Source: Pseudoscleropodium purum
Taxonomy: Eukaryota > Streptophyta > Bryopsida > Hypnales > Brachytheciaceae
Reading direction: 5' to 3'
NCBI GenBank assembly: GCA_963969395.1
Contig: OZ017797.1
Coordinates: 434,001 to 498,000 of the forward strand
Length of the DNA stretch: 64,000 nt
Below, in pieces: positions 5,600 to 56,141 of the stretch. Positions within the stretch are counted from its first letter, which is position 1. Every line of letters starts with the position of its first letter. A program made the translations under genes and the position numbers. The notes beneath the pieces are model-generated. The model ran no database searches and had not been told where the DNA came from. It saw only the letters and a program-made list of their open reading frames with translations.

Positions 5600-6310
5600 C
5601 ACCACCAACTTTGAGTCACCAGAACTCACTAAAGCTTCAAGAGGAAGTAAAGAGGGAGACCAACCTGTCCAATAGTACCTTCTATAGCATTTAGCATTCT
5701 TCCTTTTGTGAATCAAAGGCACTTACCAAATCCACTTGGATTCTGAAAGACTATCCATTTCAAACCAAAGTCACCAAGTTATGTTATAGTTTGAACTAGG
5801 GAATGCTGGAAAGTGAGTGTGGAGCGGTGAGCGAGAAGCGTGGATTGGTGAGTGGGGAACAAAAATATAACAAGAAAAATGAAAAAAGGCTTAAAAAAAT
5901 GGATAGGAAAAGTGATAAAAGTTCAAGAAAAAATGGTTGAAATTGCAGAAGAAAGTTTTTGAAATTGGTGAACGAAATGAAAGAAAATGATTGGAGGAAA
6001 TTGATGATAGAAATTGAAAGAAATAAATGAAAAGTATGGATGAATGTATGAAAATATCAATGGAAGTGGATGAAAAATGTAGATGAAAAAAGTGGATAAA
6101 AGTAGATGAAAAATATGGATGGAAGCTAATGAAAATTTGGATGAAAGTGGATGAAAAAAATGGATGACAATGGATGAGAACTTTAGAAGATAGTGGATGA
6201 AATATTTGGAAGAAAGTAATTTAAAGATTTGGATGCTTGTGAATGAAATATATGCATGAAAGTGGATAAAAAATGTAGATGATAACGTTGATTAAAAAAT
6301 AGATGAAACT
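5600..6310 (+). repeat. Left arm of a long inverted repeat with a GATGAAA-rich tract
   Basis: From about 5930 to 6310 the strand is a degenerate run of GTGGATGAAA-like words. Just before it lies a segment containing GATTGGTGAGTGGGG. The same order appears in reverse complement at about 12010-12620 (TTTCATCCAT-like words, then CCCCACTTACCAATC). Farther out, both arms share ATTGGACA followed by AGTT or GGTT. The arms are diverged and their outer limits are approximate. They bracket the truncated methyltransferase-like gene. Confidence 0.55.
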
Positions 6311-8416
6311 CGATTGAGATGATGACAACACGATATAACAAAGTCCTAACAAAATTGATTCAATATGGTTGAGAACTTTGTATTCAACATGGTCCAAATG
6401 TGTTGGCCCCCACCACAAGTAGGGTAGTACAAGGAGGATGGACCTTCCACCACGGGTAGTTGTTCAAATCAACAATGTCCAAGAAAAAACAAACTCTAAT
6501 TAAGAATGGTGACAAGCACTCCTGGCTTCAGAAGTAGACACACTACCACAGTTGGGAATGGTGACAAGTACTTAAACTTCAAATCTATTAGGCACAATAC
6601 CAGTGCAACAACTTAAAATAGAAATTCAATAGAAGATTTCATACATATGTGGTAAAATCTAGAGTACCAAGACTATGTAGAGTCTTGAATTCCTAGCAAT
6701 GTTGTCAAAACAATATCCCAAGCCATATTACTTGCAATGAGCACTATTGCTCCTACCTAGTTTTGGACAGTGAATTATATATATAACCCACCGCTTACTC
6801 TTTTCAAAAACTCTCCGAAACATACTACTAGAGTGGCATTGAATGCCTATTATCCAAGGCCATTGTAATCGGTTGCATCATCTTGGGGCCCCACTTGATT
6901 TTCGGTTGAGTTGTTCTGCTCCAACTGATTCAATGATGAATCAGAGTTTTGCTCCACAAGTGGCATTTCATTTCCACCTACAATTGGGTCCTGATGCATG
7001 GAGAAAAATATGTTGTTTAGCTCTCGGGAGTGGGGTCGGGCTCTAGCTAGTCCTCGTACTCTATTGAGTTATAAAAAACCCAATCTTCCACCTAAGCTTC
7101 ATGCTTGCTTTCCCAAGCTAAGTCTGCTATAGGACACTACTTTAAAATCAAGCCTTGTGTATATCTCCATTCGACAGAATTCAAAATTTGCCTTCTTCAT
7201 CCACACCACATTCTCCCTGCCACCTCAACTTAAAAGCTCCTTTACTACTTCAGTATCAAAGAATGGAAGCTTGCCTATATGCTGCTCCACTTCTTGATCA
7301 ACCCAATCAAGATATTCTCTGAGTTTAGACTTCAATTTAGGAAGGTAAGACATGGTCAAAGAATCACAAATAAGTGCAGAATACAGTAATTGAGACTGCA
7401 ATGAAAAACAGCAAGCTCAAAAGGTTAGAAGAGAATCAGAAACCCAAATGGCTCCCTCCTTCATAGCCTCCATCCTAGTGTTGATCACCAAGTAAATAAT
7501 GATCCTCCCAGCATTCAATGGGATTAGATAGCTTGAACCATACTCCATAATTTCCAAATGTAAAACATCAAATCAAGAAACTTAATGAGAATGGTTCTCA
7601 CACACACATCAAATTATAGGCATCATCACATTCAAGTGTACTGATTCATCCATGTGAGGATATCATGTAAAATTTTCAAACAAGTCAAAAGATGCTTGTG
7701 ACTATGAAATGAATTGCATAGTGAAACAAGGAAGATTCTGAAATACAAATGCAATAGAAAAAATAGACATGAAGCTAAATTGGAGTCCAAAAAAAAAGAA
7801 TGTGTATGTTTGCTTAAGAGAAGGGGATCAAGGACCCTCTGGGTCCCCACTAACATAAACTAAACCAGAGTCAACTAGAAAGTGTTGGTTATAATTCATT
7901 AGAACAGAGGTATTTATTACGTGCATTTTTTATCCTTATAAATAGCATTGTTGATTGAAGAGATGCAAAATTGAAACAGAAAACCAAATTGTTGAAATTG
8001 GTGTGAAGCTCAAACCATAGGAATAGAAAAGAAAAGAAGGGGTAAAATCCCAGTGCTATTGGTCTAGATCTCAAGTACAATGTGGTGAGTTTGAACTAGC
8101 CTCACTATCTGCTGATGGTGAATCCAACTCTATGGCACAATCATCTACAAATTGCAAAATGCGAGGATCTACCAATCATGCCTTGGATGTTGGTTATGGA
8201 TTTTGGCTTATTAAAACTCTAGAAATGGCTTTAGTATAGACAAAGAGGTCGAATGATATAGGAGGACTAGGATAGAATCCAGGTCTAGCAAAAAATGGAA
8301 CTTGTTTAGAGATCCTCACTTTTGGGGCTTGCCTACACACACAATGAAGGCCAGTATTAGATTATAATCAATTTGAATGTTAAATCAATTAGAAAAGAAG
8401 AAACAAAAATGAGAAT
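6311..8416. other. Intergenic DNA between the left repeat arm and the truncated methyltransferase-like gene
   Basis: Mixed AT-rich sequence. Small open stretches such as 6843-7046 plus and 7632-7856 minus have no family features. I see no gene. Confidence 0.4.
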
Positions 8417-11402
8417 TTATTTATTGAATCGTGTTTTTTTGACAATGCATTGGACTGGTACGTCTTCTTCATCCAAATTGATAGGAGCAACAATAGTGCA
8501 TGTCTGTTCAAGCTGAGGAACCATCTGTGAGCACATCATTGGTGCAATGAGTGCATCAAATATCTCTTTATCTTCTTCAAATGCAAGAATATGGTGACAT
8601 ATTGCACAACAAGTTTGAATGGTAGAGCCTACAATGATAAGTACTAGAAGTTAGTCAAAAAATCCAAAGGGAGAATGTCATTGCAAATTATAGTGAATCT
8701 TAGAAAAAGAGCCTGCTAAACAAACCTGTAGCCGCGGTGCAATGAACCATCACGTCCTCTGGTTTTGAGAGACCTTCCACAAGTGTCTGCATGAATTCCC
8801 TTGCCTTTTCACGAGGACCCCGCCATGGAATGTTACCATTCATGGAGAGGTCATCTTTATTACACAAGTTTTGCAAGATGTCGTCTCGACCAACATTGAC
8901 ATCCACCACAGCATGTGACGGAACGAACTAAAATGGGAATTCCAAGTTAGTCCTCGGTCCCGATCCTTTGACCTCCAGAGAGATGGCAAAGTGCATAGTC
9001 TACAAGACACAATAATTAGAATTGTTTTGAAAGGTAATTGAAATTGATGAAAAACATGTTGAAGGATAGTATGAATATTACTGTCTTCATTGGGTTAGCA
9101 AGCAAAGTGAGATGAAGATGATTTGTGCTAAGCCAAGTGAGAATAATACAAAATCCATAAGACTTGCAATATCCCAATAGTTGACGCTGGTGGGTCTAGA
9201 CAATACAGGATATATCACCAACAAGCCAGCCTTGTCATATAGATACTCCTATGCAAAATTGAAGATTGGAACCAACTAGTCAGATGAGAATTCATTCCAT
9301 TTTGGAATAGATGTAGGTTGTGCAGAGACAGTAGGCACGTGGAGGCCTTTTGGGAACATCCACAATGTTGTGTACTCAAGACCTTGTTGAAGTACCGGTC
9401 CTTATCATTGGAATGCTGCATGGCAATTGAATTTTAGTGACAATTAGATTAAATATGAATTGGAGGCAAGCATGGGAATCTAGAGTGACAAGTAAAAAAT
9501 AACGTAGATAGTAATAGAAAAAGTAAATATATAATTCCATTCCTAGTATGTAACCTAAATTGCCCCTGAATAGTAAAACAAACATCTTAGAATGAGAAGA
9601 TTACCATGTCAAAGAAACTAAGAACTTTATTGAATGCCTTCTTATTGCTCGAGAGATTAGCCAAGGACAAGTTGAAAATGCACTCATCTATGTCCGGAAA
9701 GGGATCCAAGTTCGCAGTTGTTGGGGTTAGCCCATGCACCAAGCGCTTTTGAGTGAGTGAAAGTCTTATTGATGTGGCCTTCGTGTCCACTTCACTCATT
9801 GCTTGGTCTTGCACTGGGGTCTCAGCCTTCCTCTTGTTGCCCTTCTTCTTGGCTTTCTCTTTCTCCTTTTCTACCTTCATAGCTTCCTTCTTCTTCTTGT
9901 TTTCCTCACTCTTCTTCTTTGCCTCCTTCCATCTATCCTCCTTATGAATTGCCTCCCTTCTCGATATCGCTTTGGCTTTTGCCTTTGGATCCAACCCTGC
10001 AAATTCATCAACCTCTGGCTCCATCATAGTGGATTCCTTTAGCATTTGGAAGAGAATCTCCTCCTCTAGTGGTGTTGTTCCGAAGTTGCATTCTTGATAC
10101 CATGGGCAAGTTTGGAGATGAGGTGTTGTCCAATTCTTTAATTGCGACAATGTGAACATATAATCTAGGGAAGACCTATCCAACCATGTGGTGAGAAACG
10201 GTGGCAAATCGGACTTTTGAATAGCTTTCTTGGCACACAATTCAAACTTGATGTACTTGAAGAGATTACCAATATAATGTTCCAAAGATTAAAAAGCAAG
10301 TTGAACACCAAAACAAATTGCAGAAACAAGTTGAAAGTAAACTAAACTACTAGTGGAAGTGGAGTTCATTGAGACACAATTTAAACAAAAAAGGCAATAA
10401 ATAATATAAGAAAGGAATTCTTGTAATCTATTTAAACAAAAAAAAACAAAAAAAACAATAGGAAATGAAATCAATCACTGATATATAAGGCGCTTCACTA
10501 CCAATGCAACCCCTTTCAAGTACTTGAAAGACTCCAATTTCTTGAAGGAATTGAATCTCGTGAACGACCTAGTATACGCATTGTCCTATATCTTCATTCT
10601 CTAGCCCTTCAGATATTCTTCAAGTGTTTGTAGTTTGTTTGGAACTGATATGTCAATGAGAATGTCATTCGATCGAGTGATAGAGTCAAACAATTCTGTA
10701 GTTGCCTCCTTCAGCTATTAAAAAAATGATTAAGATAGTATGAGAAACGAGAAGGAAGTAATGCACATTGAAATTAGGAAATGATGTACTCAAAGACTAT
10801 GGACAAACTAGTGAAATGGAAAGATGATGAAACTTGTAGTGCTTACCCTAACATAAAAACAAGCCTTCAAAAGAAATGATTGAAGTTTGTCCTCATTAAT
10901 TGGATGGGCCGGAAAACGTCGAGCCCAACGCATATAGTTAGAAGCATTCATCCATTTGAGCCACTTCACTTTGTGAGACGGACAGGCAATGGCAGTAGAG
11001 ATCATCTGCAACTTCTCCAAAGTTAACTTTGGCACCATATACTTGCTATAATGTTTTTGAACCTGCACAAATGTGAGATGAGGGTCATAAAAAAGGCTGT
11101 TTGCAATAATACACTTATTCTCTGCATTTTCAAGCATCACTCTGTACCTCTCATATGAAGTCTAGACCCAATTTAGGAGAGGCGACAAAGACAATCTTTG
11201 ACATCTTTTGTTTACACCTCTCAGTGGAATCCTTGATAGCCATCCTCATTGCTGCCACCATTCCTTCTTTGGTAGCCTTGTCTCTAGGAGTGTCCTCGTG
11301 GTATTTGTGCATAGCAAAATCGACTACAGTTGCTATATCTTGTTGAAACAATAAAACTTTTGAATCAAAAAGTGTATAAACCAAGAACATGACGGAATGC
11401 AA
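8417..11402 (-). pseudogene. 5'-truncated copy of the ParB/methyltransferase-like gene
   Basis: In order on the minus strand: residues VVDFAMHKYHEDTP (about 11340), KLTLEKLQMI and WLKWMN (about 11030-10950), RMKI-stop-DNAY (10586-10588 is the stop), KSDLPPFLTTWLD (about 10220), a Lys/Glu-rich charged tract (about 9990-9810), a degraded motif-IV-like segment MFPKGLHVPT (about 9360), IPWRGPREKAREFMQ (about 8820) and finally VHCTAATG spliced to GSTIQ, then LAFEEDKEIFDAL. The frame ends at TAA (8417-8419). Every block has a counterpart in the same order in the plus-strand gene at 22411-28582, including shared intron positions, for example after the block ending CFYVR. The ParB-like N-terminal part is missing. 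Several in-frame stops show it is dead. Because introns are kept, it arose by DNA duplication and not from mRNA. Confidence 0.7.
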
Positions 11403-12009
11403 ATTTCACAAAGGATTAACTGCATTCACCAAAAAACGTTTAATGAGAGTGTAGTGAGACTACAAGGGCTACTAATTTCATTTCATTTGTCTCATTGCAA
11501 CTCCAAGGAGAAATTATCTTTTCCTAAACTTTGAGACACCACTTGCTTCTCTCTTTGAATGCTTTGCATAAGCTCTCAATCTTTTGTTTGGCATCCTACA
11601 TATAATAAAGCTAGGAACCTTATAAAATAGATTATGTATATCATTGTGCACAAAAATAGGCCCTGAATTGCCTACCCTAAATTGAATCCTATAGCGATAG
11701 GTCCATTTTTTAAGTACATGTTTAGAATATGCCAATGAATCTAGCCCCCCCCTATCTACCACAGTCACGATCATTCTATTTTTGGATGGCAGTGGTCTAC
11801 CTACTACGGTCATGGACTACTCTTTTATGAGAGGACATGGATTCCTAACCACGGTCATAGGGCAGTCTATTTTGTGAGGGCATGAATCCATATACACATA
11901 CTCCATAATTTCAATGCATCAATGGTGTGAACCTTGACCTTCAATCCATACCCTAAACCCTATTGCCATTCTCTATATACATTTTGTAAACAATTTCCTC
12001 CACTTTCTG
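11403..12009. other. AT-rich spacer
   Basis: Between the truncated copy and the right inverted arm. No coding features. A short segment near 11748-11870 repeats the motif CCACRGTCAYGATC/ CTACCACAGTC in two or three degenerate versions. Confidence 0.3.
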
Positions 12010-12620
12010 CAGATCTTTTCATATAGCCTTCAAGTACAATCATCCATTTTTTCATGTATTGTAATGTACTTTCATCCTATCTTTCATTTAGAGTCATCGA
12101 ATTATACATCTACATTCATCCATTTCTCTATGTGCTTTCATCCAATGTGTCTTCTACATTCATCTATTTTTTAATCTATTTTCTTCATTTTTCAATCTAT
12201 TTGCAACCTCCTTTTTATATACATTCCTCCAACTCTTTTATCACTTGATGGTCACTCTATTTCCAGTTTTGAAATTTTTTTGAAATGTTCATAGAAATTT
12301 CTAAATTTTTTATACAATTCTTGATGAAATTCCATCCATTTTTTCCCACTTTCGTTTGGTATTTTTATTTTTTATCCAAAATCCCTGCTCCCCACTTACC
12401 AATCCTTGCTTGTTGCTCACACGCTAGCAACGTTGAGTTTGAACTCTCAAACTTCCAAACAACGTAACTTTGCAACGAGAGATCCAAATCTCACATGCAA
12501 GCCCATTTGGAATGTCTACTTGTCAAGAAAATGCCAATCAATTTCTTACTTGTCCCATTGGACAAGTTCTTGCAAAATTATGGACCTTTAAAGATTTGAA
12601 TTCACTAGAGAAGCATCACA
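12010..12620 (-). repeat. Right arm of the long inverted repeat
   Basis: Reverse-complement partner of 5600-6310: a tract of TTTCATCCAT and CATTCATC words, then CCCCACTTACCAATCC near 12395, then CCCATTGGACAAGTTC near 12555. Together the arms enclose about 5.7 kb containing the truncated methyltransferase-like gene, so they may be degenerate long terminal inverted repeats of one element. They could equally be two independent copies of a dispersed repeat. Confidence 0.5.
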
Positions 12621-14091: not shown

Positions 14092-14198
14092 TCAATTCCC
14101 TGTAGATCTATCCAACCTTCTTTGCTTTTGGATGAAAGGTGGATGTGACCACAATGCAACCAACTTTTTTTCTTTCACCCTCTAGAAACAACCTCCCC

Positions 14199-14482
14199 AT
14201 TAGAAGATTTTTGGGGCCTCTAGATGCCTGTGAGTTATCACAGCTTGTGAACACAAGAAACAGGTTCGGTGTAGCAGTTTAATGTGGCCGAGACCCTACC
14301 ACGTCATTGACCAAATTTTTTTTTTTTTTTTTAAATTTTTAAATTTTTTTTTTTGCATTTGGAGACTAAATTTTTTTTAATGAAAAAAATATTCTGATAG
14401 TAGACTGTCCCCTCGCTACAGGGAACAGTTGCAAGGGAACAGGTCTGAAATAGGCTTCTAGACCCCCCAAAACTCTTCTAAT
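14199..14482. mobile_element. ATTAGAAG-ended short inverted-repeat element, copy 1
   Basis: Starts ATTAGAAGATTTTTGGGG and ends CCCCCCAAAACTCTTCTAAT, a roughly 20-bp imperfect terminal inverted repeat. About 284 bp with two long T-rich runs in the middle. The same ends and much of the interior recur at 33391-33615, and the same ends at 15776-15997. Probable target duplication is TA, which would fit Tc1/mariner-type elements, but the boundary is ambiguous because the ends are palindromic. Confidence 0.65.
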
Positions 14483-14959
14483 GCATTCCCAAATGATCCT
14501 CTAATTACGCAAAATGTTTTGGATCAAGCTTAAAAATAATAATTTTTCAAATCCATTTAGAACTATAAGTAGATTTCAATGCTCTTCTATTGTTCTAAAA
14601 TTTTTAGTTCTAAATTAGTTTTCAAAATGTAGTTGTCAAGCATAAAAGAATGAGATTTTATGCCCATTTTCAAACAACACTACTAACCACTCATTTCTTG
14701 AGTGTTTGCAATGTCCTTTTGTCTTCCTACATTAGCTAAGTGGCACCTAACCTTACCATGTCAAGAGATCCAATACATATACAAAAAAGAATCACCATGC
14801 AATTTCTTTGTATTTTTGTAAATAATTTCAAACACATGACCTCTCAAGGTTAACCAACCAAAGCTGTCATGGAGCTTCCATTTATAAAGTTCTCGTTAAA
14901 TTTCTTGTTGATTTTGTGGGTCCAACTCCCCATGTTATGTTGCATTGACACAAAGTGTT
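14483..14959. other. AT-rich intergenic DNA
   Basis: I see no gene, repeat end or other feature here. Confidence 0.3.
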
Positions 14960-16213: not shown

Positions 16214-16223
16214 ATCATATGTT
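16214..16223 (+). repeat. Left target-site duplication, ATCATATGTT
   Basis: The same ten bases occur at 29328-29337, immediately outside the opposite inverted end (agreement extends to 13 bases with CAA). With a 10-bp duplication the two ends align without gaps, which is why ten is preferred. MULE elements usually make 9- to 11-bp duplications. Confidence 0.65.
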
Positions 16224-16310
16224 CAACAACGTTAGCGTGTGAGCCTAAAAATGCAAGCCTACAAGCCTTGAGCCTAGTTTTGCTGAGCCTAGAGCTTGGG
16301 GCCAAAAAAT
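16224..16310 (+). repeat. Left terminal and subterminal repeats of the 13.1-kb element
   Basis: After the terminal TGTGAGCCTA, the words AGCCTA, AGCCTT, GAGCCTAG and GAGCCTAG follow within about 75 bases. Such clusters often serve as transposase binding sites. They are inverted relative to the right end. Confidence 0.6.
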
Positions 16311-17843
16311 AAATGGAATTATAAAGATTATCATTGAAAATTTGAAAATATATAGTATTTTTTAGAATTTTTTTAGAATTTTAGGAAATTTGCTTACCTA
16401 TGATCGTGGAAAATATAGGTACTTTATAACCATGGAAGATAAAAGAGTCCATTGAACCTCAAAAAATTTCATCAAAATTTTCAGGTGAATTATTCAAATA
16501 ATTGAAATATTACTTCACTATACACTCTATCAACTTTTTCATTTCAAAAATTCAATTTGGAATTTAAGAAACTTAACATTTAGTAATACTTATTGAATTA
16601 CAAAATCTTGCCATTCCTAGCTTTCATAAACCATTTCTCAACAATATGTCTTATATCACTAAACAACCTCTAAAAAAACTCTTGAAACAAATGTAGATGT
16701 GAAAAGATATTCTAAAAAAAACCGGTATTGACAACTACAATACTACTAGAAATATAGACCTCTCTAGGTAGCCAATTTGAGAATTCCAGCCCTACTAAGG
16801 AGAAACTTCACTTCATTGAAGCTAAAGCTTGGGGCATGAATGAATTGGTCTTCCTCAGAATTCATTTTGAAGAAATACCTAAAAAGATAATACAAGTGTT
16901 TGCAGTTCACATACTACGATCAACCACCAATTGCAGCCATGGCCATGTCCACCAAACTAGGGCAAGAACATTTTAGGAACATACTAATAGAAATATAGTA
17001 AATATTTGAAGAAATACCAATCCTAGTTTCTAAACATATTATGGCTCCAAGCCCTAGAAATGGTAGCATGGTAACATTGATGATGCTTCCCTTCACGTTT
17101 CGAGCACTCTCCCACTTGTTTTGATGTTCAATTGTTGGTGCATTTGAGATCCTTTGAATATTCTTTCCCTTTCAAGTTGTTGGGTACTGATCTAGGTTTG
17201 TAGGACCACCATGCTCAAATGTAGCAGGCTCAAAAACTCTTGACATAGTGAATAGACAACATGGAGACAAAGCCTCACGTGTTCATAGACAAAAACCTGC
17301 ATGTTGAAGAAGAAGCATTTCTTGCCTTATTAGATTAGTACTTGTAAGGATCGGCCAAACTTCTGGAACCTCGGGCCAATCTAAAACCTATGAGCATTGA
17401 GATTCCATTACACATTGTCCTATATCATTGGAACAAAACCAAAAATCAAAGACAATCACCTTAGTGGAGTTATGTTCTTTCTTATGTCCATGATAGGTTG
17501 GAGTCAGAGTGCTATTGGAGTTGGAATATCGGTTTACAATGCGAACAAGGCATTTCTTTTTGATTCCATACTGTTTGAGGTGGCACTTTGCACCAAACTT
17601 CTAGGAGATTCTTGCAATGTGCCACTGTGACACATCACAATCTGATTCTAACACTAAAGTGACATGAAGAACTTCTCCAATGTTGGTAGTGATTGAAGTT
17701 GGCTCTAATGCATAAGAATGAGCAAATCTATAGCTAATTTGAACTTAAGGTTGTGAAAAATCAACCTTATTTGGCCAATATAAATCACCATCTGAGCCAA
17801 TGGGAAGATCCAACTTCCTCTTCAAACTTCCAAACACCTCTTT
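16311..17843. other. Left flank inside the 13.1-kb element
   Basis: AT-rich DNA between the left end and the 3' end of the transposase-like pseudogene. It may include its 3' untranslated region. A 77-codon plus-strand open stretch at 17397-17630 has no recognisable features. Confidence 0.3.
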
Positions 17844-20377
17844 TCACTCCAAATGTGGGACATGAGTGGCCATTTCACAAACCCCTTCCAATTGGTTCAG
17901 AGCCACCATTAACTTCTTTGGATCTCCACTTTGACGAGTAGTTCTCAATTTCAATTCTTGTTTTGAAGGCCTAGTTCTAGATGCTGATCCATAAAGATAT
18001 GCTTGGTAATTTGTCATGTGCATGAAGGCACAGATGCTATCATCACATGTTGCTGCATACAAGTCGTTTCCACAATTTCTTGATTGTTGTAACCATTTGT
18101 TGTAAATTGTCTCAGATAGATTACATGATGGCATATCTACCTCTTCTTCTAAGTGTCATTCCTTGTAAGTATCAATTCTAGTAGTTCGATCATACACAAT
18201 TTCAGTTGTAGAATGCAAACATTAAAACAAATACAATTTGTGATAGGATAAAAAAGAGTCACCATTTGCTAGAAGCTACCTCACTATCGATATTTGAAGT
18301 GCCAGAAAGCCAACCAAAGATACAATTCTCGAATTGCATCTTTTGTAATTGCTCCAGATGATAACCACCATGCTCAAATTGCAAAGTACCTTGCCTCTCC
18401 TTCTTCCCGTGTCTTGGCATCTTTGTATTGCTTACAAAATTGATCATGTTGGTGTTGTAAGTTTGGCTTTATAAGTTTTTGAGTATGCTTGTGTAGTGAA
18501 TTGGTCTAGTACAATAGACATGTGCATTTACAATTCTCCATAGGTTTCTTGGGATCACCTAATCCAAAGACAATCCTCACAACATTCCAGTTTGCCATTG
18601 CATTGTCCACCATAAAACCTTTAAAATTAGGATTTTCCACTCCATGTTTGTTTATAAAAGCAATCAAACATCTCCACATGATGTATCAAACCTTCGTGTC
18701 CTTTGATTGCATGTCACAAATGGCAATTGTTTGAAACTTTGAATATCCTAAGTCGTAGACGTGGCAGGCCATTATTGTCCAATCCTTCACATGCTTCATG
18801 TGTTCGAACATCAACCATGCATTCTCAAGATCACCACCTAGTTGCATCCGGTGGACTAGATCCACTCCACTCCTAGGCCCCAGTGCAAGCATCTTAAAAA
18901 GGTAAACCTTCTCCTTTCCTTGATCCGGAAATATACTATGATGTGTGTATTCAATGGTAGAGTCCCGCTTCAAATTCATGATTCGATCAATGATCCTACC
19001 AATCCCAATGTTCTAGAATGAAGAAATGATGTTCCTCACATTTGGAAGACTCAATATTTGAAACTTATCCATGACCTCGTTAAGTGCTTTTCCCTCCAAC
19101 ATCACTTTAGTTCCAAGCCCTTTGTGAATTGGGTAGCTCTCTAAGAACTCCTTGCTAGCAGCTATAGCAATTGCTAAGTTTGTTGTTGTTGGAGTCTTTG
19201 AAACCTCCTCTCCAATGAGCATTGATATTGTGTCCAATGATTTGCAACAAGTACGAAGAGCAACCACATGAAAATGTGTCCCTAAGTGTATACACCCCCA
19301 AGTTGTTCCATCCTTGCTCATAACATAGTAAATCTGAGTTTGACAAACATTCACACAAGTAGGAGGATTCTTGCATATCCTACAGATAATGGTACTACCT
19401 ATTGGAGGATTGCTACCAATTTTGAAAGACTCCTTAGAACATCCAGACCACTCTATTTCGTTTCTTGAAGATGACCTAGTCAAGAAGTCACAATTTGAGT
19501 TCATACATATTAATTGTCCAACGCAAAGTGACTTCCTAAAAGTCAAGTTGTCCAAGTTATGAATGTTGGTGGTAAAAGTTCTACACCAAATGTTCTCATC
19601 ATAACATTTGTCCATCACATCAAGCATAGTACATGATGCTTTACTAGATGAAGTACTTGGTAGTGGTGGCAACTAGAAAACAATGTTTCCATTGTAAGAT
19701 AGTGGTAAACATTGCACAAGATAGAAAGGAATTTTGTCAAAGTTTAGGCTAGCAAGCTCATTTCTAGCCCCTGAAACATCACCTAGATGACGCAAATATT
19801 GAAGAAGACTAGGTGTATCCTGAAAGATTGGAAGAATTGAAGGAATTGTTGTCGTTGCAAGCTTTCTAGAAGAACATGCTATAGAAATATGAAGAGGATC
19901 ATTGTCAGACTCACTAAAGAGTTCTACAATGGACGCTAACCTCTTTAGTTTAATGGAGCATAACATGGGAGGTGTAACATGCACATGTTCACCTACTAAA
20001 TTTGGACCCTCCGAATAAGTGGGGGTGCCATATGACATATCTACCGTAGAAGTGGTAGAATGATGACTTAGAATCTCCATGGACGTTGCCATGAGGGGGG
20101 CCGAGAGTCCAAAAGCTCTGAAATGCCTTGGAGGGAGCGTCCAAAAGTGTCCATCTTTTCCTAGAAACTTTTGCAATAGAATGGATTCCTTCAACTAACC
20201 AGAATCTAAGAGAACTTCCTCTTCAATATATATTGACGACTCAACAAATTTGAACCTAACATATAGCATATGACTAGAAACCGTTGCTAATCCCAATTCA
20301 TTTGCAGGCAATACCAAAGGAACCTCATAACCATCAACTCTAATTGATGCCATACTCATAGAGTGAATTTGCTCCAA
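17844..20377 (-). pseudogene. MULE-like DDE transposase relative, decayed
   Basis: One frame runs from 20377 to about 18280, broken by in-frame stops at 20195 (TAG), 19673 (TAG), 19013 (TAG), 18686 (TGA), about 18500 (TAG) and about 18375 (TGA); an intron and a last exon (SLSETI-type block, NLSETIYNKWLQQS, to 17844) follow. Features in order: a cysteine-rich block ICRICKNPPTC with a following CIHLGTHFHV (about 19290, probable zinc-binding domain); MACHVYD then AICDMQSKDT (about 18720, first catalytic Asp region); NFKGFMVDNAMANWN (about 18600, second Asp region); CTCLLY where related proteins have a C..H pair; and YFAI-stop-AWWLSSGA (about 18380). The layout D, D, C/H resembles MULE transposases. 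I do not recognise a named family, and the MULE assignment is inference. Confidence 0.55.
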
Positions 20378-22410
20378 AAATACTATTGATAGTAGAAGAA
20401 CCTCTTACATTCTTATGTACTTAACAATATTTGAAATTGAACCGTTGTGATTTCTGATAAAATATGAACTCAATGTAAATTATTTGAAGGATACTTTGTA
20501 GATGAAGATGATATTGTACATTTGCATTTACTACTCATTATGGTGGTTAATGTTTAATGATAGCACTTAGTTCAAATCTAGGATCGGATTGGACCATTAT
20601 TGCATAGCCAACTTTTTGAATGACATTATATGTACTAATTCCCATAAATACTTTTTAGCAAAATCTAAGTAGCACATTCATGACAAAAATGGCATTGACA
20701 ATTCTAGAGGCATCATAATTTCAAATTCAAACTAACTTTATAGTGGCACGTTTGTCTATAACCAACCTCAATGGTTTCAAATACTTTTATTAATCCATTC
20801 TTCATTAGCTATTTCATTTTAGTTGTAAGACTTTAGAGCATCATTTTCTTTGTCTTTGAGAGGGCTTGTGGTTGTATTGCATTTAGAAGAGCATTAGATA
20901 TTTGATTTCATGAACTTAGATGATGTCCTAGTTAAATTGGGTAATAATAAGAAGAAGTAATACATACTAATTAGTTTACTCAAATATTTGATGTTGGGAG
21001 CAATACAACGGTCCCTAATGAGATCAAGCAAAGTTTTGGCCACGATTAAGGAATACTCTTTTAGAGGAACTAAGAAAGCTTTAGAGTTTGAGAGTCCCTC
21101 ATCAACAATGGAGGCAACCATCTTGAAAAGTGTTGGAGAAGATTTGAGTGCAATTCAAGAAGAAGTAAGTCAATAATTTCCATCTTGCTTTGGTTGTTTG
21201 AGATGTTGGTTGAATCTTCATTAATATTCGAGTCTTTGAATTCAATCCTCTTAATCTCTATTTTCCATTTAAAATTGAGCCTCAAAAGTACCTAACTTAT
21301 AGAAATGGCTTTAAGGTCCATCATCAAAAATTATTGATGATGTTGCTTCTTGAACCTAGTGAAGTCAATAAGTGAGATTCTTTACTATTCTAGGAAACTT
21401 GTCTATCCACATTGAGGTAGAAACACCTAATTGTAACATTTGTTGATTGACCCCCCCTTAAATATGGCCTTAAATGAACACATTAAAGTGGTAAAACTAC
21501 CACAATTTTTTAAGTGCAACCAGTGAGAGATGAATTTTTTGAAGCAAACAATTAAAGTTTAGAGAATTTGTAATTGAAGGGTGTCCGTTCAAGGTAAGTA
21601 GGCTATCTTGTGTTTTCAACTAAAAAATTGGTAGAATATTACTAAAGTGTCAACAAATTATGAAACCACTTGGGGTGCATTTCTCTTGACTTCACAAAGT
21701 TTTAGGTAGTTTCATAAAAAAAATTTCTCATTTGACCTTTAAGGTAGGGAAATTTAAAAATTCTCTTCTAAATATTGTACACTATTAATAGACCCAAGAC
21801 CACATTAATAATGAAAGAAATAGACAAAAATGCTTAAATGATGCTTGCTCATTCCAAATAGAGTCGGGGTGCTGAGTAAGTGTATATCGACAACCCCATG
21901 GGGTTGTCCACGAGCAGACTAGGCAATTTTAGGGTTGAGGTCAATTTTTGACCTCTTCCACTATTGCAAATGCAAATCAACAAAGGTCGACTTGCTTGCT
22001 TGATCTAAAACAAGGTTTCTGTTACTTGCTTGATCTGAAACAAGTTAGGGTTGTGTTGCTAGCTTGATCTTAAGACAAGTTAGGGTTATACTGGTTGCTT
22101 GATCTAAAATGAGTTAAGCTTTTGTTTTTACTTAATTTGAAACACATTGCTTACTTGATCTCAAACTTGATTCAACATACCTAATAGCAATTTTGTAAGT
22201 ATTGTGCCAAACTCTAATAGTGGTACTCAGTAGATTATACGACTTGATTTTAAAAGAAGTTGTAGTCATTGAGTTCTTTCAAAATATCAATTCTATTAAC
22301 TTTAGAGACAAACTGAGCAGGAAATCAAAGCAGTGATCCTTGTGGAAGAGGTGCATATCTATTTAGATATGTCTCGTCAATGAACTGTAACTCATAACAA
22401 CGTAGCACAA
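20378..22410. other. Divergent intergenic region inside the 13.1-kb element
   Basis: AT-rich DNA between the first exons of the two divergently oriented genes, so it should contain both promoters. It holds the GCTTGATCT repeat array at 21998-22165 and a short palindrome CAACCCCATGGGGTTG at 21892. Short open stretches at 20894-21285 have no recognisable features. Confidence 0.4.
21998..22165 (+). repeat. Degenerate tandem repeat, GCTTGATCTAAAACAAGTTA type
   Basis: GCTTGATCT begins at 21998, 22028, 22062 and 22097 (spacing 30, 34 and 35), each followed by AAACAAG or similar and, in two units, TTAGGGTT. Two weaker units (CTTAATTTGAAAC, CTTGATCTCAAAC) follow. It sits in the divergent promoter region of the 13.1-kb element and could be a binding-site array. 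Confidence 0.6.
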
Positions 22411-25400
22411 ATGGTTGTACCTCGTGCAAAGGCAATAAGGAGTGCTTCAGGTACAACTTCAAGTCTAGAGCAGCCCAGTACAACTTCAAGTCCGGCGTGG
22501 CAACCCGTGGTAAGTCCAATTATCATTTTGTCTTTTCTCAAAGCGTTGTAGAGGTGTTTAAAATCTCCTTTTGACGTTGAAAGACCATTTTGTCATGTTT
22601 GCATTCTTGCACCTTTTGAGAATATTGGGCTTTGAAATATTGGTCCATTGAAATTTAGCTTCCCTATCACGTCTTTATTGTAATCTTGAGGTTCTGATTT
22701 GTTATGGTATGCTTGTTAGTACTCATTTATTTATTTATTTTGATTTCTTGTCCAATTTTAAGGTTGTAGAGAGTGAGAGAATCTTAGCTTGCTCATCGCA
22801 TCTTGTTTGTAACCTTGAAATTCTTTTCTTTTGGTTTAGGGTTCATTAGAGAATGTTGGACTGTTTATGAGTTTTGTTTTTGATTACTACCTTGTTGCAT
22901 TGGGTTGATTGCAAGTGGACTTTAGGTTGTATATGTTGCATTTGATTCTATTAATTTGGTGCTTTTGATTCTACAAAGCTAGGTTAAATAAACTCGACAA
23001 TAAACCATAAAAATTGAGCTCTATCTTGGTGATGCTTGAAGTCTTTTGGTAACAAAAGACTTCCAACATCACAAATACGGAGCTCACAAAAATGTGAAAT
23101 TTATTGAATTTTTACTAACATTGTTGTTATTGAAATGGGAAATGGTGAACTGGGATAGATTGGTGCCATGTTTGGATGTCTTGAGTTTGAAATTGCTCAT
23201 GCATTGGAGTAGTTTAGAACCCCTTGCTGTCATTGAGCAAAGTTGTTGAAACCGAGAATATCCACACTAATAATAGATGTTCCACTTTTGTGATTAATCA
23301 ATAGCCACGAGTCAATAAGATACACAAACTATGGTTGATATGGATAGAAGCTATTGATAATTAATCATATTGGATTCTAGATGCATAGTTTGTACCAAGT
23401 AATTAGATGCTAAAGTCTGACTAAATGAACATGGACCAAGCAATTAGAATTCTATTTATAAATTAGAAAGGTCTAATCCTTTTTCGTTACCGAAAGATCA
23501 ATTGGACATGGGTATTGCCGCTCTTTTTCTACAAAATTTCATGGACATTTAGAGTTTTGATAGCTCTTTAGCAAGCTAGGTTTTTATCTTTTGTTATCGA
23601 AAGATGTTTTGATTCTTGTCCTTCATGCATAAAAATTGAAGTTTAATTTAGGGTAGCAGCATTAGAAGAGACATTTTATCTTCAAAGGTCAAATGACTAT
23701 AAAATCTGATGAGGTTATTAATGAACTCAAGAAAAATGCAACCCAAGTGGTTTCATAATGTTTTGCCATTCTAATAATATTTTACAAATTGATATTGTTG
23801 AAAATCTAAAATTGATGAAAATGTAGGTTTGTATATTCACCTTGAATGGAAACCCTTGGAGTACAAAATGTCTCCACCTCATTCATTAGTTGCTTCAAAA
23901 AACTCTTCACCTCTAATTGGTTGCACCGAAGAGGTTGTAATGGCTTTAAATCTTTGGAAGTCATTGAAGGCCATTTTAAAGTTGTAATGAAGTGAAAAGT
24001 ATTGCAATGAGATGATGCTAGTATACATATTGTTGTTCATGTTGAAGGTATGTGAAGATCAAATGCCAAGTGAATGATGAATTGCTCATTGTTGAAATCT
24101 TTGACAATTTAATTATAGAGCTATTAATGTTGTCTTGTCAAAGTCATTCAACACTGAAAGACTGTAGCCCTATATTATTTTAAACTACCAAATACTAAAA
24201 TGGTTTTGAGACTATTGGTGAAAGAATGCTATCTATTTGACTAGTACTTTGTATTTTTTAAATATTTCATTTTAATTGATTGTAATTGAACTTGGGTACT
24301 TCAACTTCCTATAAGAGTATTCAATTCCTATGCCATAACCATCACTAAGCATAATATTTATGTCATGTACATTTCTACAACAAATGCAAATCACAATGCC
24401 ATGAAAATTGTCCATTTGATCAATGAGGTTAGCAAATCTCACTATAACCTTTTGTTATTTTTTTGTTGTGACAATGGCAACATAACATTGTATAAGCAAC
24501 TAGTAATAACATGCTTGACTTGTATGTATGAATAGGGCACTAGAACTCATGATCAGAGTTCTAATGTTGTAGTTGTTGCCCAAATCAATGGCCAAGGCTT
24601 GCTGATAAGCCTTGATGAGTCTTTCTTGAAGTTCTTGATTTGTATTAGGATTAATTCTAAAATGTTTTTTTTCTTCTTTATTTACATGTTTCTTATTGAC
24701 AATGATTTTGTTTATAGGAACCTTGCACACCAAGTAGGTCTCAGTTGCATGGCCAAAACCAATTAGATAACACAAATAGTGCGGAGTTAGAGCAACCAAA
24801 AATGGGAGGTGATGATGGAGATGTAGAGTCCTTAGAAGAAGATGAGGATAATGTTGCAACAATGCTTGAGCATGACATTTGTCAGGAACAAAAGGTTGAT
24901 TCAGTGGGGACCATCAATAGTTTATGTTTGAAGCCCCACCATTTGTCGAGGCTTCGAATTCCATTGTGCCGGCTTGTTCCTATGCCTATGGTTAGGTCAA
25001 CCCTTGCTTGTGATTTAACAAAGTTAGAGCAGGAGTTTGTCCATGGCTATAGGGAAGGAGCTTGCATTTTTTTTGTGTCCACTACAAATGAGGTTGACGA
25101 GTCTATGGAAGTGTCAGAGCAAGATTCCACTAAATGGGGGGATAAATGGGAGGAAGAAAGCAAGAAATTTGCTACTACTTTGCAGAAGGTGGGTGAGCTC
25201 CAACATTTGAAGAATTCCAAATTCTTCATTTGTGATGGCAACCATTGTCACAAAGCTTGGATGAGTCATATTGCAAAGCAGCGTCGTGCAAATGAAGCAT
25301 GGCACATTTTAGTAGACTACATTGTCTTGGAAACAAAAGACAAGATTGGGGCTGTCATGCAATCCATGCATGACATTAACAAGTGAGAATTTTTTTCTTT

Positions 25401-28400
25401 GTGCTACTAGTTGCAATAGTTAGTCATTTTTTTATATACATCAATCTAATGTACATTTTTATTGGCTTGCTAGACAAATAGAGGATTCCCATGTCAAAAC
25501 AAATTTGGTACATACTTTGTACCAAATCTAGAAGTATAGAAGTTTGGGAATTGACAAGTTCAATGAAATCCTAACTGCATCAAATTTCCAAAAGTGCCAA
25601 CAAAATGTGAAAAACACTTGGTATTCCATGCCATTGGAAGTGCTTACAACTTTTATTTTCAAGGTATGTATTTAATATTCATCAAGCTCCATTTGTTTTA
25701 TTTATCATTTTATATATTTTTTGTAAAAACAAGAGTTAACATATTGTAATTGAATAACTTAATGTGTAGTATGAAATTCGAGTTGTGGTGGATGAAGCTA
25801 TCTATCATGAGACAATTGTAGAGGCAGATATTATTGCAATGGGGATTGCAACAACAATGCAGAAAGGTGCAAAAGATAAAACTACCAAGATGTACTTAAA
25901 ACTTGCAAAAATGGTAATAGTCGTAAATCCATCTCTCACTCCTGAGTAGCTTGTTGAGTGAGTAATAAGTGCCATTTATTTTATCCTAAAAATTATATTC
26001 TTTAAATTTAATAATTTTGGTAGAATTATTTAACCACTAACATTTGTTTTGAGTGATTAGATTGGAAGGCATTGGAGTTTGAATGTGGATTCGGAATTGA
26101 CACTTGATAAGCTTCAACTATTCACAAACTCCAATGCAGGGTCCATTTATAAGGTTTGTTGGCTCAAGTGGTGGAATTCTTCCCCTAAAACAAGGAAGGT
26201 TCATTGTTTTCCACCTAGACCTGTGAATGAAGACCAATTGACATCTTTCTTGCACAAAGCTATGTTGTGTGCATGGGTGAGTGTTTGTGGTCATTATCTT
26301 TTTTCATTATATTGTTTTGTATATAAATAGGTTACAACTCTTTAGGTTTAAGGTTGATTAAATTTACAATTGCTTATTGAATTCATTGAGAGTGACATTT
26401 CAATTCTTTGTCGTTATTTGTGTAGATTGAGGAGAGTGCTCAAGAATCCTTTGAGGTCATTGTGAATAGAGATAATACACATGTGAACATAAACTCAACC
26501 CTTGAGCCTAAGACCATATCCAAGTATGTGAAAAATTGGAGAATGAAGTTGTAGGACAACGCTTACTATAGTGATTTGGCAGGGAAAGGTCACTTCAAGC
26601 ACACAAATTCTTTCAAGAATTACGATTGTTCATCTCTTATTTAATTCATTCTTCAATTTATTTTACACTTTCCTATTAAATTTTCTTTTATGGACTGAAA
26701 ATATATTTTATGGTAGATATTTCAAGTTGGAGTTGTTTCCTAAGAGAACTATTGCAAAATCTGATCTTCCTCCTTTCTTAAGGTCATGGTTAGATCCATG
26801 GTCTAATGATTGTATATTCAACACCACACAATTGAAAATATGGACCTTAGCGCATCTTAATGGATGTGGATGGTATTTGGAATGTACTCCAACATTTATA
26901 CCAACCATTGAGGTTCTTCTAAAGCATACCATTCAAGAATTTGGGGTAGTAGACAGAGTTGTAAGTGCCTTTGCAGGCTTGCAAGACAAGGCAAAGGACA
27001 AGGCCATTGCAAAGCGGGTTGAAGTTGAAAAGAAGATGGAACAGCATATGTAAGAAAAAGTAGAGAAGATAGTAGAATGTCAAAAAAAAAGAACATGCAA
27101 CTTTGAAGGCTATTGAGAAGGTCGCAGTGAAAGGCAAGCTACCAATTACCAATGTAGAGAGTTTTGGTAGTGGTGCATCTTCAGTACTTGATGACAGCTC
27201 TCAAGTTGTTGTCACCTTTATAGTGGGTACTAAACAATTGTCTTTGTATATATCACTCATCGAAGAGAAGATTACTCATGGACCTTTACTAGTTTAGTTA
27301 CAAGATAATGATATGATATGCTCAAAAGAGCTACTACTCAATTCTTTGGTAGCTAAGTTACTTGGCAATGATGATGGTCCATTGACTCAAGAGTATACTA
27401 ACATGGTTGCATTCATTGGGAAAGTGAGTCCTTCAACCTTCAGCCTCATTCTTATTTAATTTGTTTTAATTAAATTGAAAATGATTTATATTAAGGCTTA
27501 TCTAAAAATTGATATAAAACTTTGTTTTTCAGCATGCATCAAAGAAGGATCGTTTGTTCCAAGGTCAGATTAACAAGCATCCTAGTTTTGACCTTATCAT
27601 TCTAGACATGCCAGAAGGATTGCTGATCCCTAGGGTGAGTCATCCAAATTCCAAAATACCCACTTGAAATATGTTACCAAAGAATTGGTTGGAACTTGGG
27701 TTTGATTTGATGGACAATCATCTTCATGATGATGGGGCACTCATTATACATTCACCTAGTGCCTCAGTAAAGAGGAGAATTCTAGAAATCTATCAAGCAA
27801 ATTCAGTGAAGATCTGAAAGGAGTGGTGGGGGATTAATCGCCTCTACTTATCTTCCATAGTCATTCCTTCATGCTTGGTATGATTATTTTTTCTTATAGG
27901 GTATAGTTTGAAAAGTTGTAACTCTTGAATTCTTGGTTGATTTGCTTCTAACACTTGATGATTACAAATCCTTACAGACCAAGCGTTTTGGAGTCACTCT
28001 TCTTCTTTGGGACTTGGAAGGTTTTCCACCATGAAAGTTCAACTTCCGAGACATTCCAACCCTTGAATCCTGATGTCTTGATGTCAATGGTGATGAGTTT
28101 CTAGATAATTTTACAATGAAGGGTGATCTATTGATGAACAAAAAGATTCCATGGCATGGAAGGTGGCAAAAAGATCAAATGTTCATGCATATGTTGATCA
28201 ATTCTTGCATTGTACTTGGTGACTTCATTTTGGATGCCACTACTGCGGTTGGTCAGTAATTACTTTTAGTTCTATTCTACATTTTAATTTGTTGCACTAT
28301 GATTTCCTTCATATGTGTTCAATATTAAAATTTTCTAATAATAATTCATTAGGAGGGGCTTCTATTTTTGCATGCTGATCATTGGGAAGACACATTGTTG

Positions 28401-28582
28401 CCCTTGAAGAAGACAAAACAATCTTTGATGCACTTCTAGCTCCATTGATTTGCCTTGCACCCAAACCTATTGCACCCAAATGTATTGCAATTACAAAAGT
28501 TGTGGCATTGACCTTTGGTGACCTAGATAAAGAATTGCGTGACATTGTGCCAAAGAAGAAAAAATCTTATTTTAGTAAATAA
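22411..28582 (+). pseudogene. ParB-like plus DNA-methyltransferase-like fusion gene, multi-exon, decayed
   Basis: Likely exons: 22411-22509 (ATG, Ser/Thr-rich, GTAAGT donor; tentative), 24718-25382, 25474-25663, 25770-25957, 26061-26276, 26426-about 26640, 26717-about 27423, 27533-27877, 27978-28251 and 28353-28582 (TAA). Exon 2 carries LRIPLCRLVPMP, FVHGYREGACIFFVST and FFICDGNHCHKAW, the layout of a ParB/sulfiredoxin-like domain with its DGNHR box. The middle is family-specific, with KSDLPPFLRSWLDPWS. The end reads FDLIILDMPEGLL (motif IV position), DDGALIIHSPSAS, then GDFILDATTAVG-GG-ASIFAC (AdoMet glycine-rich position) and GRHIVALEEDKTIFDAL (motif II position): IV before I is the order of beta-class N4/N6 methyltransferases. 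In-frame stops at about 25524, 25947, 26552, 27051, 27296 and others, plus at least two frameshifts, show decay. The catalytic DPPY is replaced by DMPE. Activity and substrate are unknown. Confidence 0.6.
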
Positions 28583-29257
28583 GTCAACCTTGTAAGTCTT
28601 GCCTTTCATTCATTCTTTAAGTTTAGTCCTTGACTACTTTCTAATATGAAATGTGTGGCTTATCAGATTTGTAGGTTCTGACCTTGTGACAAAGCAGCCT
28701 TTCTTTTGTAACCCAGAATTCTTCCAGAGTCCAAAGAAGACTTTCGATTTGCCAATTTATGCTACAGACATGGCAAATACATCCATCCAAGGTGGTTCTA
28801 GGCCTTCATAGTAGAAGCTCATTACTATGGATCCTCATATCTTAAACTTTATTGATGTAGAAGTAGCAAAGTCAAATGGTGATTCTATGATAGGCTCCTT
28901 GAGCAACTCAAACTCTCAAAGTCTTCTAAGGATTTACTTTGATATCTCAATTGCTTGGGTAGATTTCATTTTATTCATGGTACATTGTCATTATCTTTCA
29001 TTAGCAGAGGCTTTGTTTTGCTTTGAATTTAATTTATGATATATTACACTATGGTGTTCTTGTCATTCGATTAGTATTTGGTAGCTTTATTTCATTTATA
29101 TGATCATTAAAATCTTATACAATATTGTATATTCTAAAACTATACAAACTAATATTCATTTTTATGATTTGTATTGTAAAACTCTCACTCTAGATATTGG
29201 GCCATGTCTAAATCCTTGGTCAGATCTTCACAAGTATAGGTCCATAGTCATAGGTCA
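28583..29257 (+). other. Right flank inside the 13.1-kb element, possible extra 3' exon
   Basis: After the TAA, a GTAAGT donor at about 28590 and an acceptor before 28674 would join a frame reading TKQPFFCNPEFFQSPKKTF. The truncated copy also stops at an equivalent TAA, so the stop is probably natural and this stretch untranslated or a relic. The rest is AT-rich. Confidence 0.3.
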
Positions 29258-29327
29258 AATTTGTAAAACTAACTAGGCTCCTAGGCTCTTAGGCTCAAGC
29301 TCCTAGGCTCACATATTAGCAACCCTG
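29258..29327 (-). repeat. Right terminal and subterminal repeats of the 13.1-kb element
   Basis: Read inward on the minus strand: CAGGGTTGCTAATA, TGTGAGCCTAGG, then GAGCCTAA, GAGCCTAG and GAGCCTAG within 55 bases, mirrored at 16224-16310. Confidence 0.6.
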
Positions 29328-29337
29328 ATCATATGTT
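29328..29337 (+). repeat. Right target-site duplication, ATCATATGTT
   Basis: Identical to 16214-16223. It directly follows the last base of the right terminal repeat. Confidence 0.65.
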
Positions 29338-29720: not shown

Positions 29721-30651
29721 TTAACCTCTAAAGGACCAAACTTCATTTTTTGGCAACATAGAAATTTTAAGCAAGTGTGTATGACTAGAGATTTTTATAT
29801 TTTTGGCCCAAATTTTCATAGAAGGTGTAGACAAAGAATATCTTTCATGAGCACTAAATTTTAGGACATTTGGAAATATGAGTAAAAAGTTATAGCCTAA
29901 TATGTAGTTTATTTCTCAACTCGAGCAATCCAAGTAGATCTGAAAAAATCATTTTTTTCAAAAATCCAAATTTGAAATTCGTTTTCTAGATTTATATATA
30001 CATTTAAAGCTTTGAATCATTCCATTTAGATTAAGGAATTAAAATTTATGAGGTGTTTTAGTTTGTGAGCAAGTATAGATTTTCTACCCCAAAATAAACT
30101 TTGAAATCCTTTATTGAACTCAATTCTCAATATTTTTGGAAAGAAATAAAAATATTAGGTGAAGATTGTTTATCACAACATTACAACTATTGGAATTGAC
30201 ATTTTTCAATTCCATAAATAAATTGTTAATAATTTAGTGTTCTAAACCATTCTCTACATCTTTCTACTTATTATTTTTTTCCTATATGTTGTACAATTTC
30301 AAATGATCTAAAAATTTTCAAGCATGTAGCCAACATGCCTTGAAGAATGATTCCAAAGAGTTGCAATCATTTTGAACATTTTCATACAAATGTGACCTTG
30401 TGAAGTTCAACTGCCCAATATTTCATAAGAACAAAAAAATGATTTTGTCACTTCAAATGCTAATATCTTGCAATTTACATAGTGGAAATTTTTGAACTTT
30501 TTACCACATCTTTTCAAACCAGCATACTACAAGATCTTATGGTTACATTTGTCCAAAAATGTTTTTTTTTCTAAATTTTGAAACATGTATAAGAAATGGC
30601 AGTTTTGGAGCGTTTTTGGCAAAAACATAGTCAAGGAACTTTAGGGGTTAA
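29721..30651 (-). mobile_element. TTAA-bounded non-autonomous element, copy B (piggyBac-like MITE)
   Basis: Ends are TTAA-CCTCTAAAGG on the left and CTTTAGGGG-TTAA on the right. Along its length it is the reverse complement of copies A and C, for example CCTTGAAGAATGATTCC, TTTTCAAGCATGTAG and CATTTTTTGGCAACATAG. 931 bp including both TTAA sites. It has no coding capacity. Confidence 0.75.
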
Positions 30652-31311
30652 CTAATCAATTTAGATTGAATGCTTCATATTACATAATTATTTGTCATAA
30701 GAAATGTCACTTATTAAATATGCAAGCTAGTACCTTTTGTAAACTTTATAAAGCAAAGATATGCTTGAAAATGATTAGAACAGTGCCTTAAAAAGGAGTG
30801 CTCTAGATGGTCCTTTTTTTTGTGAAAATGTGTTTTGCATTTGCAAAGACTCTTCCATTGTTGGCATTGACAGAATTTAAAATGAAATAAATAAAATAAA
30901 AAATTGATATTTCTTCCTTACAAGACGATCATGGATATTTATGCTCAACAAATGAGAAGTTCTAGTCAAATGAAAATATATAGATTGGCTCTAATTTAAC
31001 AATTTACATAATAACTTAGATGTACAATATATTATTTCTTTTGTATTTTCTAGAAACTTTGTAAAATTTAAGTAAAAGACTCAAAAAATGGAGGGAGAGA
31101 GGGAGAGAGAGGGAGACAGAAACAACTAGTAGTGCTTTAAGGTTGGTGTACCTGAAGGATTTTTTTTAATTGTGGTTACACATTGGACTCCAAAAAGTCA
31201 ATCTGAGTAACACCTAGGCTATTTCTTTTCATAAAAAAGGAGATTCTAGAATTACTAATTAATTTTGAGAGGTAATAAGGAAGATTGAAATTTTGAGTAT
31301 GGATTATATGA
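30652..31311. other. Spacer between inverted copies B and C
   Basis: AT-rich, no gene. It contains a GA-rich tract (GGAGGGAGAGAGGGAGAGAG type) near 31088-31120. Confidence 0.4.
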
Positions 31312-52402: not shown

Positions 52403-52406
52403 TATG

Positions 52407-52423
52407 CCTCCTCCTCTTCCTCC
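52407..52423 (-). promoter_or_regulatory. Polypurine tract
   Basis: Sense strand GGAGGAAGAGGAGGAGG, four bases before the 3' LTR: the expected primer for plus-strand DNA synthesis. Confidence 0.8.
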
Positions 52424-52427
52424 GTAA

Positions 52428-56103: not shown

Positions 56104-56141
56104 CTTGCCTACACGCTTCTGATTGAGTCTTTTGCTGAAAG

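Follow-up and report, generated by a model that had tools for sequence, protein, structure and literature searches.

DNA transposons that carry a ParB-like and DNA methyltransferase gene beside their transposase are already known from algae. The brown alga Ectocarpus harbours a 21.5-kb Sola-1 element, Sola1-1_Ec32, in which a gene for a 1104-aa ParB plus methyltransferase protein lies opposite the transposase, and the same source cites green and red algal cases of ParB-methyltransferase transposons, with Iyer 2011 and Petroll 2025 among its references (PMC12477816). Other methyltransferases are also found in transposons (PMC3627910), and the bacterial protein Bce_0392 is a fusion of ParB with an adenine methylase, the ParB part of which is reported to have nonspecific nicking activity (PMC5512222). 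Among plant transposons, Mutator-like elements (MULEs) generate target-site duplications of 8-11 bp and often possess terminal inverted repeats of hundreds of bp (PMC6446971), while the VANC protein binds noncoding DNA of the element that encodes it and causes silencing marks to be lost (PMC10398659). Here we describe a 13,104-bp block, hereafter element 1 (16224-29327), from a 64,000-bp window of the Pseudoscleropodium purum genome (contig OZ017797.1; G000:C41:434001-498000 of an assembly of 313 Mb in 52 contigs). It contains two divergent genes, a transposase-like one on the minus strand and a ParB/methyltransferase-like one (open reading frame 2, ORF2) on the plus strand, both broken by in-frame stops. 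The block is probably one decayed member of a large family of cut-and-paste DNA transposons, in which a transposase-like gene is accompanied by ORF2 as an accessory gene whose product would bind the DNA of the element.

Element 1 is enclosed by perfect 10-bp duplications, ATCATATGTT, which occur twice on the + strand of the window (Table 1). Its inner ends read CAACAACGTTAGCGTGTGAGCCTAAAAATG on the left and, as the reverse complement, CAGGGTTGCTAATATGTGAGCCTAGGAGCT on the right, with TGTGAGCCTA common to both at equal offset. The motif GAGCCTA/TAGGCTC is found three times at the left and four times at the right within the terminal 120 bp, compared with one occurrence each in the intervening 12.9 kb, and the left cluster extends to ~16310. 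Taken alone, this boundary is within chance, because comparable pairs arose in random replicas: when 10-bp duplications whose inner ends resemble each other were listed from 18/26 upwards, element 1, with an end-to-end match of 15/26 (by eye), was not included, and 60 replicas yielded 24 duplications with ends that agreed at 16/26 or better, none of which reached 18. However, copies of both ends across the host genome rule out a chance boundary, and therefore make it certain that the boundary is that of a mobile unit. The first 151 bp and the last 150 bp each returned at least 40 matches in the host assembly, and at eight left-end loci (element 1 included) the border starts with CAAC, CAAT or a near variant, while the flanks are different (by eye).

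At eight other left-end loci, each examined over 17 kb, we found two full copies, three loci with a transposase fragment only and three without a gene match. The full copies, C44 and C42, both carry the two genes: the former is 15,255 bp long and ~90% identical along element 1, with the duplication GCCCAAGTTC/GCCCAAATTC (9/10), and the latter reaches 34,709 bp, including ~21 kb of nested DNA, with the duplication TAGGAGAGTG/CAGGAGAGTG (9/10). A fourth full element, C46:16444677-16460820 (16,144 bp; exact duplication CTGTAGAGAG, 10/10), represents a different subfamily, the copies of which are more alike. Its terminal inverted repeats of ~25 bp read CAAC..GCTAGCGTG and CAGGGTTGCTAGCGTGTGAGCC, its methyltransferase exons (locus L060) are open, and its transposase and ParB matches fall in open frames of 751 and 235 aa, as taken from the match listing rather than from the letters. 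In total, the 10-bp duplication is present in five of the seven elements for which both ends were read, being exact in element 1, in element 2 of the same window, and in C46. These observations bear out most of what an initial annotation of this DNA had proposed, namely a perfect 10-bp flanking repeat, inverted ends with AGCCTA clusters, two divergent decayed genes, and movement of the block as a unit. Further copies with both genes between the same ends, which it had named as a check, are likewise present. Its extension of the repeat to 13 bp is rejected, given that the CAA added on the left belongs to the element itself, of which it forms the start, and that the duplication is also 10 bp long in C46, element 2, C44 and C42.

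Several repeats accompany these structures. An inverted repeat (21626-21694 and 23722-23790, 84%) lies between the two genes of element 1, and this intergenic region has reverse-strand matches of ~80% in C44 and in C42, which suggests that an inner inverted repeat is conserved. Additionally, a diverged repeat is present on both sides of element 1 (13202-14484, 29987-30705 and 31258-33617), in direct and inverted copies that are 71-88% alike.

The pairing of the two genes is a family trait and not an accident of one copy. We scored the best 150 of 368 candidate genome matches for ParB, the best 150 of 348 for the transposase, and the best 150 of 220 for the methyltransferase exon (149 matches). 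Merging of fragments removed two ParB rows and one transposase row, leaving 148 and 149, respectively. As a null, each contig was moved whole in 2000 shifts, with some or all contig ends approximated by the highest coordinate seen. Among these listed copies, a transposase lies within 15 kb of 64 of the 148 ParB copies (null mean 3.0, maximum 14), and all 64 pairs are divergent; at a radius of 30 kb, 71 ParB copies are paired, 70 of them divergently. Furthermore, a methyltransferase exon is found within 10 kb of 85 of the 148 ParB copies (null mean 2.4, maximum 15), in every case on the same strand and downstream, at a median distance of 3479 bp. At least 39 loci display the whole order of transposase, ParB and methyltransferase. 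Divergent pairing holds across ParB copies down to ~26% identity, and the arrangement of the two genes, as well as that of the two ORF2 domains, is fixed where they co-occur.

Members of the family have moved recently, since in two copies of the C46 subfamily the 921 bp that run up to their common end are 97.2% identical. Among the matches listed, one methyltransferase exon is represented by 13 copies (the query counted) that are 97-100% identical, 12 of which are stop-free, and for 9 of the 150 listed transposase matches the surrounding frame is 681-791 aa long and stop-free within the match. Short elements that share the ends and lack the genes are also present (e.g. C41:5521895-5522086 and C46:20367385-20367641, the flanks of which lack a clear duplication by eye). 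The distribution of copies is uneven: contig C49 (highest coordinate seen 12.6 Mb) holds 30 of the 148 ParB, 21 of the 149 transposase and 28 of the 149 methyltransferase-exon copies among the best matches listed, corresponding to a ParB density of 2.4/Mb compared with 0.3-0.5/Mb elsewhere, and might be a sex chromosome or an otherwise repeat-rich chromosome. On G000:C47, ParB copies at 8962912 and 9100830 and transposase copies at 8971556 and 9109474 have equal scores, and both pairs are 137,918 bp apart, suggesting that 138 kb were duplicated recently or appear twice through an assembly artefact.

With its exons joined by eye, ORF2 would encode roughly 900-1000 aa. A ParB-like domain in its first exon is suggested by a single motif, present as ICDGNHR in P0036 (a metagenomic relative), C44, C42 and copy L059, and as DGNHC in element 1 and L063; we take DGNHR to be a ParB motif. 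A short stitched ORF2 query retrieved five homologues from the protein collection, the whole read-through (965 aa) retrieved none from it, and no relative was detected in three scans of viral contigs. Several Pfam matches below cut-off were judged to be chance, namely those of the L059 ParB exon to DUF6363 and two other families (0.037-0.15), of the ORF2 read-through to a dynein stalk (0.037), and of the L059 methyltransferase part to a fimbrial family (0.044), as was a transposase-exon match within the ORF2 of L059 (29% over 89 aa, E 0.002).

For the C-terminal region, the query was the 237-aa domain of the open copy L059, with exons joined by hand. This domain matches phrog_18293, a PHROG methyltransferase (E 6.8e-8), and DpnA in the PDB (E 0.001). 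It also matches CcrM NF050803 at E 3.8e-6, yet with 26.1 bits against a family cut-off of 830, and PF01555 (N6_N4_Mtase) at E 0.0012, yet with 19.3 bits, under the curated cut-off of 26.7, and from a start that lies after the motif IV region; the longer 797-aa protein reaches E 0.032 with the same family. Weak but consistent, these matches point to a likely methyltransferase fold and to a relationship of the ORF2 C-terminal domain with beta-class DNA amino-methyltransferases.

Catalysis by ORF2 nevertheless appears doubtful, because motif IV is altered in every copy read and the motif I position is non-canonical. The canonical forms are (D/N/S)PP(Y/F/W) for motif IV and DPFxGxG for motif I. 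With its position taken from tblastn and from alignment by eye, canonical motif IV is found in none of nine copies from four lineages: the position reads FDLQEN in L059-L062 (one near-identical group), LDMPEG in element 1, VDMPKG in C44, VDMPEG in C42, VEYPNG in L063 and LWMFPKG in element 2, and the motif I position reads VLDNTGATG or ILDATxAxG. S-adenosylmethionine (SAM) binding by ORF2 is possible, and a DNA-binding regulator with a SAM fold seems likelier than a base-modifying enzyme. The ParB/methyltransferase-like fusion of the initial annotation is retained for its methyltransferase-like part and its ParB-type motif, without a ParB profile or fold match, whereas the further suggestion of an active base-modifying partner finds no support in the nine copies. 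The role in self-protection or replication control that it raised would be a conjecture.

In C46 the transposase-like gene has an open frame of ~750 aa, and in element 1 it includes one or more additional exons. The open frame of L064 contains a C/H-rich region and ..CDMQSEDTE..FMADSA..RTCLLHW (by eye), and the order SED..FMADSA..RTCLLHW resembles the D..CxxH layout of MULEs, whose transposases have a DD..E triad, a CxxH ahead of the E and an RNase H fold. The transposase exon of element 1 has 35 relatives, at 50-62% identity, among 199 candidates in public metagenome proteins. Matches of a transposase piece to a viral processing peptidase in Pfam (E 0.0035; 0.038) were below cut-off and judged to be chance, and the Foldseek matches of the two AlphaFold models, of this protein and of the ParB-like domain (protein phosphatases, designed folds etc.), were dismissed as the models were poor. 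We label the transposase MULE-like because of the 10-bp duplications and the motif order, and do not file it as a MULE. The original MULE-like designation draws on duplication length and motifs and finds no echo in the profiles, in that neither the transposase pieces of element 1 nor an open 752-aa frame match a MULE profile.

Under the interpretation that we favour, the transposase would cut at the ends of the family, including those of the short elements, and ORF2 would bind element DNA and aid the self-regulation of the element, for example by shielding it from silencing or by steering transposition, in the manner of VANC, the closest analogue for which such a role has been tested. The subterminal GAGCCTA clusters are candidate ORF2 binding sites. 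Binding of DNA, and perhaps of SAM, is a more likely mode of action than methylation of bases, since none of the copies read has an unaltered catalytic motif. A more specific proposal, which we offer tentatively, is that an abundant and recently active MULE-like family of a plant-type genome has a ParB-pseudomethyltransferase partner, in which an enzyme of bacterial type would have lost its catalytic motif and been retained to regulate silencing or transposition by binding DNA and possibly by sensing SAM.

Several results, in addition to the profile matches below cut-off, weigh against this interpretation. The splicing of ORF2 is predicted from sequence alone, searches of Pfam, PHROGs and the PDB with the ParB-like exon gave nothing related to ParB, and a ParB-domain model from two sequences had a predicted local distance difference test (pLDDT) score of 46.2, with meaningless Foldseek matches. 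The 752-aa open transposase frame has no Pfam or NCBIfam match up to E 10, the transposase gave unrelated PDB matches only (E 0.38 or worse), its catalytic residues are assigned by eye, and its structure model (pLDDT 37.5) is too poor to use. No clear target duplication is seen by eye in the short end-sharing elements L057 and L058. No transposase is listed within 15 kb of 84 of the 148 listed ParB copies, including L059, for which none is listed within 30 kb either and whose 10 kb of sequence examined contain no recognisable ends. Finally, four recent copies (nonsynonymous divergence, dN, 0.017-0.027; synonymous divergence, dS, 0.007-0.045) display no clear constraint. The unpaired copies, L059 among them, the absence of one or both genes from element 2 and the short elements, and an uninformative dN/dS are compatible with a view in which the two genes became adjacent by capture or nesting in a few copies, with ORF2 a passenger without function for the element. 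However, we consider this very unlikely in light of the 64 of 64 divergent orientations that persist down to ~26% ParB identity and a pairing far above the shift null. Moreover, unpaired copies are over-counted because only the best 150 of ~350 candidates were scored per gene.

The altered motifs bear on the alternative in which ORF2 would be catalytically active, as an N6-adenine or N4-cytosine methyltransferase with a non-standard motif IV, and would mark the DNA of its own transposon. We judge this unlikely, given DLQEN, DMPEG/DMPKG, EYPNG or MFPKG in place of the canonical motif IV, and the departure of the motif I position from its canonical form, despite the relationship to DpnA, CcrM and PF01555 and a frame that is open in several near-identical copies. 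Such activity is also the proposal published for the algal relatives (PMC12477816). With regard to the transposase, an origin in a non-MULE superfamily (hAT-like, Sola-like or undescribed) is suggested by the lack of a MULE profile match, and the CAGGG start of one end resembles the ends of hAT elements. It nevertheless seems somewhat unlikely, since a 10-bp duplication misfits the 8 bp of hAT and the 4 bp of Sola elements, and the motif order of the protein resembles the MULE layout. The ~25-bp repeats are short for a plant MULE, but the 10-bp duplications of five elements fit the MULE range (PMC6446971).

Table 1 Coordinates of the features of elements 1 and 2 in the 64,000-bp window
Feature	Position	Strand	Basis or remark
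Element 1, left target-site duplication ATCATATGTT	16214..16223	no strand	+ strand occurrence in window
Element 1, left terminal inverted repeat, CAAC type	16224..16253	+	genome matches start here, flanks differ
Element 1, decayed transposase-like gene, stop-broken	17847..20404	-	C/H-rich region, then D..D..CxxH region (by eye)
ORF2 first exon, putative ParB-like domain	24745..25383	+	motif DGNHC in element 1, DGNHR in several other copies
ORF2 middle exons, including exon 26704-27050 common to element 2	25770..27050	+	sequence matches
ORF2 C-terminal exons, methyltransferase-like domain	27518..28579	+	motif IV position DMPEG, motif I position ILDATTAVG; identified via copy L059
Element 1, right terminal inverted repeat, CAGGG type	29298..29327	-	TAGGCTC cluster internal to repeat
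Element 1, right target-site duplication ATCATATGTT	29328..29337	no strand	+ strand occurrence in window
Element 2, left target-site duplication AGTTTGAACT	5788..5797	no strand	exact 10/10
Element 2, 6.6-kb deleted relative of element 1	5798..12435	-	ends, duplication and ORF2 remnant
Element 2, ORF2 remnant	8197..11405	-	33-46% identity to element 1, exon by exon
Element 2, right target-site duplication AGTTTGAACT	12436..12445	no strand	exact 10/10

Element 2, the second member of the family in the window, has a CAAC-type end at 12435 and an AGGG-type end beside the 3' end of its ORF2 remnant, which fits the minus-strand orientation of the latter, and neither the transposase exon nor the ParB exon of element 1 has a match in it. 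Copies with one gene only had initially been thought to speak against a two-gene unit; element 2 is literally such a copy, and the short end-sharing elements have no genes, yet they look like ordinary deletion derivatives. Near the ends of element 2, arrays of GGATGAAA-like units (6048-6305 and, by eye, ~12000-12330) stand in place of the GAGCCTA clusters. Elsewhere in the window, a long terminal repeat retrotransposon (52118-57678) with 285-bp repeats that are 100% identical, coding frames split over several open reading frames and a chromodomain-like C-terminus (by eye) is probably a recent insertion, and a DUF2921 gene, presumably a plant marker, is located at 1753-3795.

Among the papers listed in the literature searches, PMC12477816 was the only directly relevant account of ParB-methyltransferase transposons. 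What appears to be new against that background is the MULE-like carrier, the plant-type host, the large number of copies combined with a strict orientation, and the alteration of the catalytic motif. Transposon escape from silencing can hinge on accessory genes, and a bacterial-type ParB-methyltransferase-like gene retained next to a transposase in numerous copies, some of them near-identical and open, makes the question of whether such partners modify, shield or bind their element a testable one. For this branch, the altered catalytic motif calls into question the simplest published idea, that of self-modification.

Like Sola1-1_Ec32 and its algal relatives, the family described here comprises giant DNA transposons with a ParB-like plus DNA methyltransferase accessory gene on the strand opposite the transposase, although ParB is recognised here by motif only (PMC12477816). 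The likeness is one of architecture. The transposase of Sola1-1_Ec32 is of the Sola-1 type in a brown alga, whereas ours is MULE-like in a plant-type host, where more than 100 copies of ORF2 are present, short elements share the ends and the catalytic motif is non-canonical. With Bce_0392 (PMC5512222), the family shares the fusion of a ParB-like domain to a domain of methylase type; unlike the bacterial protein, ORF2 consists of several predicted exons, with a long middle region and with changes in motif IV. Similarly, MULEs with accessory genes (mudrB of MuDR, vanC of VANDAL) resemble our elements as plant DNA transposons with a second gene and a duplication within 8-11 bp (PMC6446971, PMC10398659). 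In contrast to MuDR and VANDAL, our elements combine short terminal repeats (~25 bp plus subterminal repeats) with different accessory domains and a transposase that profiles do not recognise.

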